Shown: positions 30,312-36,430 of the stretch, in pieces
Layout: each line of letters starts with the position of its first letter
Position numbering within the stretch: position 1 is the first letter of the stretch
NCBI GenBank assembly: GCA_947625125.1
Contig: CANQNF010000010.1
Span: 1 to 64,000 of the forward strand
DNA from: an uncultured Clostridia bacterium
Lineage (GTDB): Bacteria; Bacillota; Clostridia; Oscillospirales; Ruminococcaceae
DNA length: 64,000 bases
Reading direction: 5' to 3'
Position numbers and translations under genes: made by a program
The notes under the pieces: generated by a model
Seen by the model: only the letters and a program-made list of their open reading frames with translations
Told to the model about the DNA's origin: nothing
Databases searched by the model: none

Positions 30312-31118
30312 TCATTCCGTCCGGGCTTTTCTTATGTAGTTGAAAAGATACAGCTGCGCTATGCCCCGTGTTTCGTAAAGATTTTCCGGGAAGCCGTCGG
30401 GGTAGTATTCCTCGAGCACCCGCTTCATCCACACGTCCACCGGAAAAGCCTCGGTCTTTGCAAATCCGCTCAGCAAAACGCAGTCTGCGACCTTGGGACC
30501 CACTCCCTTTATTTTCATGAGCGTTTCCTTGGCCTCGCCGTACGGCAGCTTCTCGACCGCTTTAAGGTCTATCTCGCCGCCCGAGATTTTTTTGGCCGCG
30601 TCGAGGACGTACTTGGCCCTGAACCCCGAGCGCAGATACCCAAGGCTCTCCTCGGTTTCCACGGCCAGCTCATCCGGCGTGGGGAAATGCCCGTAATGCT
30701 CAAAAAGCCTCGCCACGATGCCCTTTATGCGGGTAATATTGTTGTTCGAGGAGAAGATAAAGCTGACGAGCGCTTCCCAGCCGTCCTGCCTAAGAAGCCG
30801 AACGCCGCTTGAAAATTCGCAGGCGCTTTTTAACGCGCTGTCCCCGGAATAAATCTTTCTCAGCGACGAGTAGTCCCTCTCAAGGTCGAAATATGGCGAC
30901 CAGACCTTTAAAAACGTCTCCTCGTCGGTGTCCTTGAAGATAAATTCACCGTTTGATTCGGTGATGTCAAGGGGCGTGTCGAGGCAGTAGCCGAAGTATC
31001 GTCCCTCCCCGATCTTATTCCACCGAAACGCCTGACCGGTGTCCAAAACGTCGTCAAGCTTAAGGTCGGGCTGTCTAAGGATTATATCGCTCCCCGAGAC
31101 CCTGTAATCTATGTTCAT
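30312..31118 (-). CDS. 8-oxoguanine DNA glycosylase (OGG1-like)
   Basis: 268 residues. The N-terminal TBP-like domain has DTGQAFRW; the helix-hairpin-helix-GPD region is MKIKGVGPKVADCVLLSGFAK followed by the catalytic Asp in EAFPVDVWMKRVL, and the lysine nucleophile is expected in the MKIKGVG hairpin area. It removes oxidised guanine opposite C and nicks the strand. ATG 31118 lies 4 bases after the DUF6062 stop (overlapping expression). Family calls sometimes say DNA-3-methyladenine glycosylase, but the QAFRW and PVDVWM blocks favour OGG1 type. Confidence 0.88.
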   Translation of the reverse strand: MNIDYRVSGSDIILRQPDLKLDDVLDTGQAFRWNKIGEGRYFGYCLDTPLDITESNGEFIFKDTDEETFLKVWSPYFDLERDYSSLRKIYSGDSALKSACEFSSGVRLLRQDGWEALVSFIFSSNNNITRIKGIVARLFEHYGHFPTPDELAVETEESLGYLRSGFRAKYVLDAAKKISGGEIDLKAVEKLPYGEAKETLMKIKGVGPKVADCVLLSGFAKTEAFPVDVWMKRVLEEYYPDGFPENLYETRGIAQLYLFNYIRKARTE

Positions 31119-31122
31119 TCGC

Positions 31123-31812
31123 TCACGGCTTTCTTGAGGTCAGAAATTCTACGGCGCGCTCCACCGAGTCGCGTGAATTTCCCCAGTCAGCGTTCTCGCC
31201 GTTGTTACGGTAGTCAAACATCGAACAGAAGCGGCTCACGTCCTTATATAACGTCTCGATATACTTCCCGCTGAGCTCTAAAACGTCGTCCCTGAAATCC
31301 GGCGCAGTCCTCTTGTCAAGGGCGTCCGGCGCCATCGACAAAAGCATTTCGGCATGTGGCATGCAGATAAACGGCTGCTCCTTAATGAGCGCCTTGAATT
31401 CCTTGGAATTTTTATACATGTCAAAGACCGTCACCATCAGCCTCTCCATCGCCCAGTCCACCTTTGAGCAGACAAAGCAGGTCTCGTTTGTCTTGGCGAG
31501 ATTTTTAGCGCGCTTTGTCTTGTTGTCGATAAGCCCCTGCTTGGTAAAGACCTCGCGCTTTACGGTCTCAAGCCGGGTCTGGAGCATGAGCGCGAGAGAA
31601 AGGCGGTTTTTCTGCTTGAGCATCTGGTCGAAATGGGTCTTGCAGAAGCCGAGGCGGTTGGTCTCTATCCTCACGTCCGGCTCCATCATCGCGGCGCCCA
31701 TTATGTATTCGACGGTCCTCTTTTCGAGCATGTCGCGCATTCGGCATATCGGGCAGCCGTCCCTCGGTTCAAATATCTCGTTTACGGGAATTGTAAGTAT
31801 AGATTCGCGCAT
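31123..31812 (-). CDS. DUF6062-family cysteine-rich protein
   Basis: 229 residues from ATG 31812, which follows AAAGGAG by 7 bases; the more distant start at 31869 lacks a ribosome site. Three Cys/His groups could bind metal: CPICRM near the N-terminus, LGFCKTHFDQML, and TCFVCSKVDW followed by FICMPHAEMLL. Mostly helical, no membrane segment. It matches DUF6062, common in Clostridia and of unknown function. It is first in a DUF6062-ogg-tmcAL operon, so a link to nucleic-acid maintenance is possible but unproven. Confidence 0.82.
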   Translation of the reverse strand: MRESILTIPVNEIFEPRDGCPICRMRDMLEKRTVEYIMGAAMMEPDVRIETNRLGFCKTHFDQMLKQKNRLSLALMLQTRLETVKREVFTKQGLIDNKTKRAKNLAKTNETCFVCSKVDWAMERLMVTVFDMYKNSKEFKALIKEQPFICMPHAEMLLSMAPDALDKRTAPDFRDDVLELSGKYIETLYKDVSRFCSMFDYRNNGENADWGNSRDSVERAVEFLTSRKP

Positions 31813-31880
31813 AGCTATTCTCCTTTGCGTTGATAATTTCATTATAGCAAATCCCGATAAAAAATTCAAGACCGCCCGGC

Positions 31881-32403: not shown

Positions 32404-32468
32404 TTTTGCCGGACGGGGTTATAATTATCATAGTAAAATTTGGGATTTTCCCCGGAAAGAGGCAGGAA

Positions 32469-32741
32469 ATGTTAAAGGGAGTAACAAGAAGGATAGTCGA
32501 GGTCAAAAGCCCGGGCAACCCGTCCGTCGAGAGGGCGGTGCTTTATCTTAGGCCGGAGGCGCCCGCACCGAAAAAGAGCGAGGTCTCGGCCATGGCTGAG
32601 GACTATTTGGACGGAATATATGTGCCGGACGGGCAGGGGACTGCCAAGGGCCTTAAACTCACCGTGGCGGTTTTGGCCTTAAGTCTTGGGGCCGCGCTGA
32701 CCGCCCTCACGGTTTTATTGTTTCTTTATACAAAAATGTAG
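32469..32741 (+). CDS. small single-pass membrane protein of unknown function
   Basis: 90 residues from ATG 32469, with GAGG six bases upstream; the in-frame codon at 32406 overlaps the promoter region. The N-terminal half is basic then mixed (VTRRIVEVKSPGNPSVERAVLYLRP), followed by a probable C-terminal membrane helix (LTVAVLALSLGAALTALTVL). It would be tail-anchored with the N-terminus inside. I do not recognise the family; VEVKSP and the tail anchor recall small Firmicutes proteins with no assigned role. Confidence 0.7.
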   Translation: MLKGVTRRIVEVKSPGNPSVERAVLYLRPEAPAPKKSEVSAMAEDYLDGIYVPDGQGTAKGLKLTVAVLALSLGAALTALTVLLFLYTKM

Positions 32742-32858: not shown

Positions 32859-33623
32859 ATGGACAACAAAGCTAAGCGCCAGGGCGGCGGCGGACTTATA
32901 GTCGGCAGGAACCCCGTTTTGGAGGCGTTAAAGTCCGGCAGACCCATCGACTGCGTGTATATCTGCGGCGAGGGCGGGTCTGTGGGCCTGATAAAAAAGC
33001 TCGCCAAGGAAAGCGGCGCCGTCATCAAGCAGGTCAGCCGCCAAAAGCTTGACGAGATGGCGGGGGGAGCATCCCACCAGGGGGTCGCCGCCTCGGGAGC
33101 GTGCGCCGAGTATTGCGGGATAAGCGATATTTTAAGGCATGCCGAGGAAAAGGGCGAGAAGCCGTTTGTCATCATCTGCGACGAGATAGAGGATCCCCAC
33201 AATTTGGGAGCGATAATACGGACCGCCGAGTGTGCGGGCGCGCACGGGGTGATAATCCCGAAACGGCGTTCGGCGTCATTGAATGAGACCGTTTTTAAGA
33301 CGTCGGCAGGGGCTGCCGCGTGGGTCCCGGTGGCAAGGGTATCGAATCTTGCGGCGGCCATAGACGAGCTTAAAAGCGCGGGACTTTGGATATACGGCAC
33401 CGACGCGTCGGGGGAGGACTACTCAAAAACCGACCTGCGCGGGCCCATCGGGCTGGTCATCGGCTCCGAGGGCTTCGGCATAGGAAAACTCATCGCGGAA
33501 AAGTGCGATTTTATGCTTAAACTCCCGCTGAACGGAAAGATAACCTCGCTGAACGCCTCTGTGGCGGCGGGAATATTCATGTACGAGGCAGTCCGCCAGA
33601 GGTCTGCCGAGGAACAGATATAA
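32859..33623 (+). CDS. rlmB: 23S rRNA (guanosine-2'-O-)-methyltransferase, SpoU family
   Basis: 254 residues. The N-terminal substrate-binding domain begins LIVGRNPVLEALKSGRPID. The knotted SPOUT domain has the three family motifs: DEIEDPHNLGAIIRTAECAG, GLVIGSEGFGIGKLI and LPLNGKITSLNASVAAGI. It methylates G2251 in the peptidyl-transferase P loop in well-studied relatives, using S-adenosylmethionine. ATG follows AAGGAGAGAC. The pseudo-P-type ATPase gene begins 36 bases after its stop and is probably co-transcribed. TrmH-type tRNA enzymes are related, but the N-terminal domain fits RlmB. Confidence 0.92.
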   Translation: MDNKAKRQGGGGLIVGRNPVLEALKSGRPIDCVYICGEGGSVGLIKKLAKESGAVIKQVSRQKLDEMAGGASHQGVAASGACAEYCGISDILRHAEEKGEKPFVIICDEIEDPHNLGAIIRTAECAGAHGVIIPKRRSASLNETVFKTSAGAAAWVPVARVSNLAAAIDELKSAGLWIYGTDASGEDYSKTDLRGPIGLVIGSEGFGIGKLIAEKCDFMLKLPLNGKITSLNASVAAGIFMYEAVRQRSAEEQI

Positions 33624-33659: not shown

Positions 33660-36392
33660 ATGGACAAGAACTTCACCGTCGACGACATCATAAACGAATA
33701 CTCCGGCAAGACCACCGGCAGAAAGGTGAGCGACGAATCGCTCGACCTTGACGGTATAATTTCGAGTCTCGGGCATTCCGACGAGACCCCCTCGGGCGGT
33801 CAGAAGCCGAGCCCTAAGACGGAGATAATAGAGGACGTCCTTGAGATAGGCAGCAACAAATACGCCGTGGACGATTTTTCCGAAACCGACGGTGAGCCGG
33901 CGCCCGAGCCTGTGCAGGAGTCTGCGCCTGCGCCCACCTATACCCACGTCGACGAGCCGGGCGTTTATCTTCCCAAGGAGGACAGCGGAGCGTCGGAGCT
34001 CACAAACACCCAGATAATCGCCGAGCTTTTGTCTGCGGCCGAGCTTAGGGAGAAGCCCGCCGAGAAGCCTGCCGAGCCGGTGATTGATGAAGATTTCGGC
34101 TTGAGGCATGCCAAGGACACCGAACAGGGCACCGACGTTATAGAGCGGGTCCTTGAGGAGCAGGAGATACATAATCCTCCCGAGCCCGAGCCGGTCCCCA
34201 AGGAGCAGGAGCATGTTCCCGAACCGGAACCCGTGCCCGAGCCCGTGCATGAGCCCGAGCCTGCTATTGATACCGACCCCGACAAGGTCGTACCGGTGGA
34301 GGAGACGGTCCACCGTTCCGAACCCGGAATAAGACCCCTTAAGGAGAACGGCTCCAACACGGCGATAATGGAGGGCCTATTAAAGCTCAAAAAAGAGCGC
34401 GGCACCGTCAAGCACCGCGACCCCAAGGTCGACCCGGTGAACAGGGCGACGATAGATAACGTTGATTTAAACATAGATTCAAAGATACTCCCGAACACCG
34501 AGATAGGTCTTGAAGAGAACGCGACCGAGGAGGAGCGCCTTGCCTACCTGAACGCAAAGAGGCGGGAGCGCGTAAAGCAGTTCGTCATCTCCGGCGAGGA
34601 GGAAGAGGAGGAGCCGAAAAAGGACGACGTGCCCGATTTTATGAGCTTTGAGCAGGCGAGGGACATGGCCTCGAACATCTCCTCCCTTAAGGCGAGCCTT
34701 GTGGTGAGACTCTGCGTGCTTCTTATAGCCTCCGTCGTCAGCGCTTACGTCGCCATAGCGAACGACCTCGGGCTTCCCCTTATCGGCATACTTTCAAAGG
34801 CCGAGAACCAGGGCATGCCGTATCTGTTTATAAATGTGGTCATCGGTCTTATGGCATGCTTTGTAAGCTATACCGTTCTGGCAGTAGGTCTGAAGAAGCT
34901 CTTCACGCTTAAGGCGGACAGCGATTCCTTGGCGGCTGTGGCGGCATTGCTGTCGATAGGCTCCGGCATTGCGCTTCTTACCGACACCGAGCTTGTGCAG
35001 CTTTCCGTCGCGAACGTCTACATCAGCGCCGCCGTCATAGGACTGCTGATAAACACTTTCGGAAAGCTTCTTATCGTGACAAGGACCGAGCGCAACTTCG
35101 AGTATGTTTCGGGCGGGTATTCAAAATACGCCGTCATGCACATCGACGACGAGGACCTTGCCTCAAAATTCACAAAGGGCGCGCTGACCGATTTCCCGTC
35201 GCTCACGACTTCAAGAAAGACCGAATTCGTCAGCGATTTCATTAAAAACAGCTATTCCGCCGACCTGACGGATTCGTTCTGCCGCTACTTCGTGCCGATA
35301 ATAACCCTTATTTCCCTTGTTGTTGGCATAATCACGGCGTTTTTACACCCTGCCGAGATAAACACCGCTACGAGAATGCTTCTGTTCGGGCTTTCCTGCG
35401 CGGCCGGGACATACGCCATGTGCTCCTGCGCCGGCATGATGCTTGTCACTAACATTCCTCTTGCCAAGGGCTCAAGAAAATATATGCAGCAGTCGGCGGT
35501 CATGCTCGGATACTCCGCCGTTGAAAAATTCAACGACACGAACTCGATTCTGATAGACGCGGTAGATCTTTTCCCCGACGGAATGGTGGAGATAATAAAC
35601 ATCAAACCGACCAAAAAGACCCCCATCGAGGACGGCATAATCTATGCGGCGTCGCTCTGCTGTCAGACCGAATCGATTTTAAGACCGACGTTTTACAAGA
35701 TGATAAAGGGCAAGACCGAGATGCTCTTCCCTGTCGAAAGCTATATTTATGAGGACGGCCTCGGGCTTTCGGGCTGGATACAGAACAAAAGAGTGCTCTT
35801 CGGCAACCGCGCGCTTATGGAGGCGCACTCCATCGACGGGCTGCCGACTCCCGAAAAAGAGGCGCAGTATCTCAAGGAGGACACCAGCCTGCAATATCTG
35901 TCGATAGGCGGCTCCTTGGCAATGATATTCGTCGTGAAGCTGAAAGCGTCGGTCACTGTCGCAAAGGCGCTCAGGGACTGCGAAAACCAGAATCTCACGA
36001 TAATTCTTCGCTCCGTCGATTCGCTTCTGTCGATAACGAGGATAGCGGAGCTGTTTCGGGTAGCGCCGAACATGTTCAAACTCCTGCCGTTCAGGCTTCA
36101 CAGCGAGTACGATTCCTGCACGTCGTATGTTGAAAAAATGTCCTCGCCGATGATATATTCCGGGCATTTTGCCTCGCTTGCGATGCTCCTGACGGGCGTC
36201 AAGAGGCTCCAGAAGTCGGCGATAGTGGGCGTGGCGCTGCAAACGCTGTCGGCCGTTTTGGGAGTAATTTTGGCGGTAGTTTTAGCGCTCGTCGGCATTT
36301 TCCCGCAGGTCTTGGGAGCAACGGCGGTAATATCCTACGTCGTCGCGTTCGCAATAATCACGGCGATAATCCAGGCAATTGCAAAGACTTAA
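33660..36392 (+). CDS. P-type-ATPase-like membrane protein lacking catalytic motifs
   Basis: 910 residues. Residues 1 to about 310 are a soluble, acidic, Pro/Glu-rich region (repeated EPEPVP words, probably disordered). From about 340 the layout follows a P1B-type ATPase: membrane helices, then CSC (588-590) where heavy-metal pumps have CPC, then AVEKFNDTNSILIDAVDLFPDG where they have the phosphorylation site. Asp633 aligns with the phosphorylated Asp but KTGTLT is replaced by AVDLFP. The nucleotide-domain segment VLFGNRALMEAHSI is recognisable. TGDN is replaced by RSVDS (about 784), and no GDGxNDxP is present. Two or three C-terminal helices follow. It therefore cannot be an ordinary pump; a sensor or scaffold role is inference. 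ATG follows TGGAGG. Confidence 0.8.
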   Translation: MDKNFTVDDIINEYSGKTTGRKVSDESLDLDGIISSLGHSDETPSGGQKPSPKTEIIEDVLEIGSNKYAVDDFSETDGEPAPEPVQESAPAPTYTHVDEPGVYLPKEDSGASELTNTQIIAELLSAAELREKPAEKPAEPVIDEDFGLRHAKDTEQGTDVIERVLEEQEIHNPPEPEPVPKEQEHVPEPEPVPEPVHEPEPAIDTDPDKVVPVEETVHRSEPGIRPLKENGSNTAIMEGLLKLKKERGTVKHRDPKVDPVNRATIDNVDLNIDSKILPNTEIGLEENATEEERLAYLNAKRRERVKQFVISGEEEEEEPKKDDVPDFMSFEQARDMASNISSLKASLVVRLCVLLIASVVSAYVAIANDLGLPLIGILSKAENQGMPYLFINVVIGLMACFVSYTVLAVGLKKLFTLKADSDSLAAVAALLSIGSGIALLTDTELVQLSVANVYISAAVIGLLINTFGKLLIVTRTERNFEYVSGGYSKYAVMHIDDEDLASKFTKGALTDFPSLTTSRKTEFVSDFIKNSYSADLTDSFCRYFVPIITLISLVVGIITAFLHPAEINTATRMLLFGLSCAAGTYAMCSCAGMMLVTNIPLAKGSRKYMQQSAVMLGYSAVEKFNDTNSILIDAVDLFPDGMVEIINIKPTKKTPIEDGIIYAASLCCQTESILRPTFYKMIKGKTEMLFPVESYIYEDGLGLSGWIQNKRVLFGNRALMEAHSIDGLPTPEKEAQYLKEDTSLQYLSIGGSLAMIFVVKLKASVTVAKALRDCENQNLTIILRSVDSLLSITRIAELFRVAPNMFKLLPFRLHSEYDSCTSYVEKMSSPMIYSGHFASLAMLLTGVKRLQKSAIVGVALQTLSAVLGVILAVVLALVGIFPQVLGATAVISYVVAFAIITAIIQAIAKT

Positions 36393-36402
36393 ATAATAAT
36401 GT

Positions 36403-36430
36403 AACTCCCCCGGGACCCTCGGGGGAGTTT
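36403..36430 (+). terminator. terminator after the P-type-ATPase-like gene
   Basis: AACTCCCCCG paired with CGGGGGAGTT, followed by a short T-rich stretch, 10 bases after the stop codon. Confidence 0.85.

Follow-up and report, generated by a model that had tools for sequence, protein, structure and literature searches.

The DKTGT motif is what defines P-type ATPases, a textbook enzyme group, and inactive pseudoenzymes that are kept as scaffolds form a general class. In the literature that we searched, which covered few subscription papers, we found no described bacterial pseudo-P-type ATPase. A clade that lacks DKTGT and the rest of the catalytic cycle, and that is still kept by most of the members sampled in an order, would be an unusual case of a transporter turned structural protein.

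Here, we follow up a gene in a 64,000-nucleotide stretch of DNA from an uncultured Clostridia bacterium, the whole of which we call the window. An initial annotation, made from the letters of the DNA, had read this gene as a pseudo-P-type ATPase with a long acidic head. The observation as a whole was confirmed, and the interpretation that came with it, either a metal or nucleotide sensor or a membrane scaffold, was partly supported.

An Intact Gene Related to Heavy-Metal Pumps

The pseudo-P1B-ATPase gene (33,660..36,392, + strand; 910 aa) is called on its intact frame and its homologues. As had been claimed, the frame runs over 910 codons without interruption from ATG to stop. GGAGG precedes the ATG, which follows the stop codon of rlmB after a gap of 36 nt. 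Directly past the stop of the pseudo-pump gene, at 36,403-36,429, lies an inverted repeat of 10 pairs, seven of them G-C, for which a terminator-like call was obtained on the minus strand only. When the own genome was searched with the window protein at E 1e-3, the sole match was the protein itself.

Kinship becomes visible once sequences are pooled into profiles. A profile of 42 core sequences matches Legionella CopA (3rfu) with an E value of 5e-29, and a profile-profile alignment of the core with 23 true pumps covers 480 columns that run from the start of the membrane part, at its first segments, as far as the GDGI position (E 1e-32, probability 99.9). Together, these two values place the likeness to P1B pumps far above chance. 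Two of the true pumps come from the own genome; the other 21 are the best loci outside the order (L109-L129). Each was taken as the frame containing DKTGT, and such a frame was present at all 21 outside loci. The single window protein gives a weak match to the NCBIfam CopA model (6.2e-10, residues 535-792), meets no Pfam family above the cut-off and has no Pfam domain in its N-terminal part. A search of the own genome with Pfam E1-E2_ATPase returned three places over the cut-off, each with a frame that has DKTGT, TGE, and GDGxND; the window gene falls under that cut-off.

Mean hydropathy of the 42 sequences indicates about eight membrane segments in a P1B layout. The first four lie at 34,692..35,084 (+), with centers near residues 358, 399, 434, and 462, and the last two at 36,207..36,389 (+). 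Judged by its sequence, the window protein is a member of the P-type ATPase superfamily by descent, with homology across the membrane and the P/N parts, and it would presumably share the fold. The profile alignments bear out the earlier statement that domain order and local similarity follow heavy-metal P-type ATPases, and a fold unrelated to these enzymes, the alternative raised at the time, is contradicted at the level of sequence profiles.

What Is Lost and What Is Kept

We aligned 50 members, which represent 23 families, with the pumps. Of these, 21 were hand-picked for spread among the 74 sequences of the family set, and 29 are order-wide loci in 22 further families; for one of the 29 (L175), where the gene is split, only the C-terminal piece was included. 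Not one of the 50 has an intact DKTGT, TGES, TGDN, or CPC. In the window protein, alignments with pumps put DAVDLFPDG (residues 633-641; 35,556..35,582, +) at the DKTGTLTEG position. DKTGT has become DAVDL, in which the aligned catalytic Asp is present (D633) and the rest is gone; the initial annotation had given LIDAVDLFPDG for FDKTGTLT, and this is what is found around residue 633. The first DKTGT column holds an Asp in 18 of the 50 members, and the next column does so in 28.

The A (actuator) domain (35,085..35,279, +) is shrunken, with long gaps in the profile alignment and no TGE, and the TGES columns are gaps in all 50 members. In the window protein, SVDS occupies the TGDN position (36,012..36,023, +); in the 50-member alignment, the Asp of TGD is retained in 48 of 50. 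At the GDGI(ND) position, the profile alignment with pumps places YSGH (36,156..36,167, +), so that GDGxND reads YSGHFA in the window protein; the pattern is absent from L102-L108, and it was left uncounted in the 50-member alignment because the site lies outside the trimmed columns. SEHPL is replaced by ESILR, again by profile alignment. The reported loss of the KTGTLT, TGDN, and GDGxNDxP motifs holds, by alignment, for the window protein. As a working pump, the protein fails every catalytic-motif test made on the aligned sequences, and it would presumably have no ATPase activity.

In membrane segment 6, the alignments show CSCA at the CPC position (residues 588-591; 35,421..35,432, +). The earlier reading of CSC for CPC was right in that CSC is present at 588-590, but SCA (589-591) is what aligns to CPC in both pump alignments. 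The region varies from member to member, with CSA, AAS, CAP, and GAA in four of them (L003, L013, L048, and L058, respectively). The CPC proline is found in 32 of the 50 members, the window protein not among them, and most of the cysteines have given way to other residues, as though a helix kink had been kept without the metal site.

The best-kept stretch of the N domain is VLFGNRALM (35,793..35,819, +), in which, across 42 members, the G is invariant and the R and M are nearly so. The nucleotide-domain stretch that had been singled out before, VLFGNRALMEAH, was located as described, at residues 712-723.

These kept and lost residues bear directly on the suggestion that the dead pump binds a metal or a nucleotide and passes the signal to its head. 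The GNRxLM stretch and the Asp of TGD are kept, and the window protein has its CSC, all of which such a sensor could use. However, the CPC-region residues, cysteines included, vary among members, and the window protein has other residues in place of SEHPL and of the DKTGT lysine and no longer has a GDG site. Variable cysteines and replaced nucleotide-binding positions disfavor metal or nucleotide sensing, and we consider it unlikely.

Genomic Context

The upstream gene (32,859..33,623, +) encodes an rlmB-like SpoU methylase (Pfam SpoU_methylase, 1.4e-43) and is itself preceded by a gene for a small membrane protein with no Pfam match (32,406..32,741, +). An rlmB gene lies upstream on the same strand at 42 of 45 family-set loci, the window included, and at 23 of 29 loci of other families, the latter being a lower bound because some loci are cut by contig ends. 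Other neighbors are more local. The small membrane protein is found nearby at 20 of the 45 family-set loci and, by BLAST, at one of the 29 order-wide loci, an OGG-type glycosylase at 25 and one, and an EF-G-like gene at 15 and six; DUF6062 occurs near 15 of the 45 and was not found at the 29 order-wide loci. The order-wide neighbor link is to rlmB only. In the window, the DUF6062 protein is encoded at 31,123-31,869 and the OGG-type glycosylase at 30,312-31,118, and each turns up again close to rlmB at some of the family-set loci.

The steady company of rlmB, with the less frequent EF-G-like gene, could be taken to reflect a role for a translation-linked membrane protein at membrane-bound ribosomes. 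Yet rlmB is a housekeeping gene, whose lasting adjacency may be mere co-transcription, and no RNA-binding or ribosome-binding family was matched in the one protein scanned (Pfam and NCBIfam). We regard a translational role as quite unlikely.

Distribution and Constraint

Nine columns are invariant, of which six fall within the P/N module and not the membrane part, and the pseudo-pumps have acquired replacement constraints of their own: LFPxG, a YED-x-x-GL-x-GW stretch, and GNRxLM. In the membrane part, an invariant proline (P600) follows downstream of the CPC region. That residue, the CPC proline in 32 of 50 members, and the retention of about eight membrane segments are what one might expect of a passive channel or altered transporter, the membrane part of which conducts an ion without ATP. 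Since the CPC cysteines are not kept and the invariant columns lie mostly outside the membrane, such a function seems to us improbable.

In the host order, 183 of 197 genomes (manual table count) match the core profile better than 8.4e-32. That value is the strongest match obtained when 236 genomes from the other orders of the class were searched; no genome among the 236 surpasses it. Fourteen genomes of the order fall short, and because six of these are at least 90% complete, loss or divergence does occur. Within the own taxonomic family, 196 of 197 genomes match the single protein at 1e-3, a count that may include ordinary pumps. A phylum sample (n = 159) contains 16 genomes that match the core profile at 1e-25. 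Two of them belong to the order, with matches of 1.3e-53 or better, and the other 14 do not, their best value being 3.0e-29; for the 123 genomes of this sample without a match, kinship is not listed.

Homologues with intact motifs were sought, and the intact ones lie only outside the clade. The best matches outside the order lie in frames of the kind typical for CopA and span positions 211-493 of the profile, all 21 best outside loci of the class search carry DKTGT, and in five outside loci (L109, L110, L128, L323, and L324) DKTGT, TGE, and GDGxND are all present. A FastTree phylogeny of 572 columns splits the 50 members from the 23 pumps with a support of 1.0 and a branch of 1.32.

Selection was gauged in nine comparisons of close relatives. 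The core gave dN/dS values of 0.068-0.133 in eight of these, the ninth being without dS, and the P/N module gave 0.057-0.136 in the same eight; the head is looser, at 0.144-0.250 in the six comparisons yielding an estimate. All of these figures are rough, as synonymous distances exceed 1, but they speak against neutrality. An assembly artefact was rejected, as the same state recurs in independent genomes.

The claim that the dead-pump form is maintained is therefore supported: motif loss is shared by 50 of 50 members, these form one clade with no intact member, purifying selection acts on it, and the gene is near-universal in the sampled genomes of the order. A decaying pseudogene would explain why the catalytic motifs are all missing, but the frame is intact, dN/dS is low, most of the order's sampled genomes carry the gene, and long-diverged members of 23 families, found to be under purifying selection, have the same losses in common; its probability is negligible.

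The Acidic Head and Its Start

Composition and hydropathy mark roughly residues 1-340 (33,660..34,679, +) as an acidic, proline-rich, presumably disordered cytosolic head, with 52 E, 33 P, and 25 D among 320 residues. The initial annotation had described a 310-residue Pro/Glu-rich head; it is indeed acidic and rich in E and P, but its length up to the first membrane segment is nearer 340. Over 103 members the median head length is 284 residues, and the 101 heads longer than 60 residues average 22% acidic and 15% basic residues. The head is not indispensable, as the listed members of family f10 (e.g., L168) have frames of only about 540-565 aa, in which the head is missing, as is part of the first membrane segments.

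A scan of the head also found a repeat, [KN]T-x-I-[IM]-x2-[LV]L, which is present three times, at residues 53, 116, and 233, and once more in a looser form, at 158 (33,816..34,382, +). It occurs 36 times in 103 heads, compared with a shuffled mean of 1.04 (maximum 5). As a conserved head feature, the [KN]TxII repeats were rejected: they are real in close relatives, but are present in only 23 of the 103 members.

The start of the head has a conserved consensus, [FY]-S-[VIL]-D-D-I-L-x-E-[YFI], and in the window protein the corresponding stretch is FTVDDIINEY (residues 5-14; 33,672..33,701, +). A motif expression for it is found within the first 90 residues of 69 of 74 family-set members and 12 of 29 order-wide members, and several further order-wide members show looser forms. 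A similar expression, applied to the first 60 residues, matches 40 of 45 and nine of 26 members versus one of 640 and one of 350 neighboring ORFs; the single match among the 350 is a detached N-terminal piece of a member. We propose that this N-terminal motif is a newly found feature and a candidate docking site. Our literature search, with few subscription papers covered, found nothing on a VDDIL motif or on short linear motifs in connection with MltG and intrinsic disorder.

One ortholog, L175 (genome G218, family f23), is interrupted by one in-frame TGA, and the N-terminal motif lies on the piece before it; a mutation would account for this, as would recoding of TGA in the lineage concerned.

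A Similar Motif on Some Envelope Enzymes

Of 100 family genomes, 54 had places that fit a DNA pattern for the motif, 82 in all, and a reversed control pattern fit eight. By coordinates, 31 of the places belong to the pseudo-pump gene, plus one probable case (G083). The other 50 divide into 32 that were read in frame, 17 that were not fetched and one with a short frame only. Among the 32 read, five are N-terminal: an MltG (L215), two class B sortases (L217 and L228), a signal peptidase I (L221), and a 160-residue protein (L230). The first four each have an acidic head before the first membrane-like segment. By our own estimate, which supposes an even spread in ORFs of about 300 codons, some three of 32 places would be N-terminal by chance, and so the pattern matches alone prove little. 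The G092 sortase start, KKYTVDDILDEYSGK, and that of the window protein, NFTVDDIINEYSGK, nevertheless agree beyond what the pattern demands. In the window's own genome, no second N-terminal copy of the pattern was found; a looser pattern, which cannot match the Tyr ending of the window gene's motif, hit eight places there, six of them in frames longer than 80 aa and none N-terminal.

MltG offers a fairer test of sharing, since its loci were not selected for the motif: they were picked by protein family in 30 genera and scored by a weight matrix built on the motif as it occurs in the pseudo-pump family. Nine of the heads are short; the other 21 have at least 35 residues, and in two of them no membrane segment is clear. 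Eight of the 21 score above shuffled sequences of matched composition at p < 0.05 (Fisher 9e-12, for which independence is assumed although the genera are related), and all eight are within the top 1% of 704 neighboring ORFs. The motif was not seen in the other 13 heads, that of the own genome's MltG included (L253, p 0.48).

Sortases in general were rejected as carriers, as the 30 best loci yielded 26 candidate ORFs, some perhaps in the wrong frame, and no match. Short-headed sortases at the scored sortase loci did not score for the motif. Those with the motif are three head-bearing sortases, two of which had been found by the motif. The third, L303, was picked by length alone and scores p 0.0003; of the others picked by length, L305 has p 0.32, and L309, which has a charged head, gave no match and was unscored. 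L311 and L312 (the same sortases as L217 and L228) also reach p 0.0003 but are not independent, having been found by the motif pattern itself, as were MltG L215 and signal peptidase I L221. L311 and L312 belong to class B sortase clusters in which one member has a long acidic cytosolic head, a VDDI-type start, and a Thr/Lys-rich C-terminal tail.

Proposed Role

We envisage a single origin, no later than the ancestor of the order, for a dead relative of the P1B copper-type pumps, which may since have been kept as a structural protein. Its eight membrane segments and cytosolic P/N module would form a membrane-anchored platform. The long acidic head would hang in the cytosol, where the amphipathic start motif would dock a cytosolic partner, and the pseudo-pump would thereby recruit, position, or titrate a partner common to envelope-building enzymes. 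A membrane scaffold acting through the head was the better of the two options put forward initially; it gains some support from the N-terminal motif. That the protein is a structural membrane scaffold, with a head motif docking a partner shared with envelope enzymes, is in our estimation somewhat short of an even bet.

A shared partner is suggested by the similar motif on part of the MltG heads, on single class B sortases, and on one signal peptidase I. In some genera, the heads of these unrelated envelope enzymes begin much as that of the pseudo-pump does, which makes an organizer of the envelope or of division a possible partner. In streptococci, EloR and DivIVA both bind MltG (PMC10269899); the passages of that article from which we cite do not state which part of MltG is bound. 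This makes counterparts of EloR/Jag and DivIVA the first candidates for the partner of the pseudo-pump, by analogy and as a lead only.

It is tempting to go further and suppose that, in an order of gut Clostridia, a copper pump has become a near-universal, non-enzymatic membrane hub, and that its N-terminal motif is one instance of an undescribed docking code through which MltG, sortase B, and signal peptidase I would find a common cytosolic organizer. We would call this broader picture possible but doubtful. Whatever its fate, the recurring N-terminal motif is a cheap and concrete handle for a partner search, and it may expose an envelope organizer in gut bacteria of little-studied cell biology.

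Comparison with Known Systems

With the P1B pumps CopA and ZntA, the window protein has in common about eight membrane segments, the P/N module, and the GNxxLM stretch. It differs from them in having no DKTGT, TGE, TGDN, GDGxND, CPC, or SEHPL, in its shrunken A domain, and in the long acidic head at its N-terminus. MltG (YceG), a protein with one membrane segment, carries a similar motif near the start of its acidic head in eight of the 21 heads tested, whereas its catalytic domain is unrelated to the pseudo-pump. With pseudoenzymes that are kept as scaffolds, the window protein shares the pattern of a family kept, catalytic residues lost, and selection retained.
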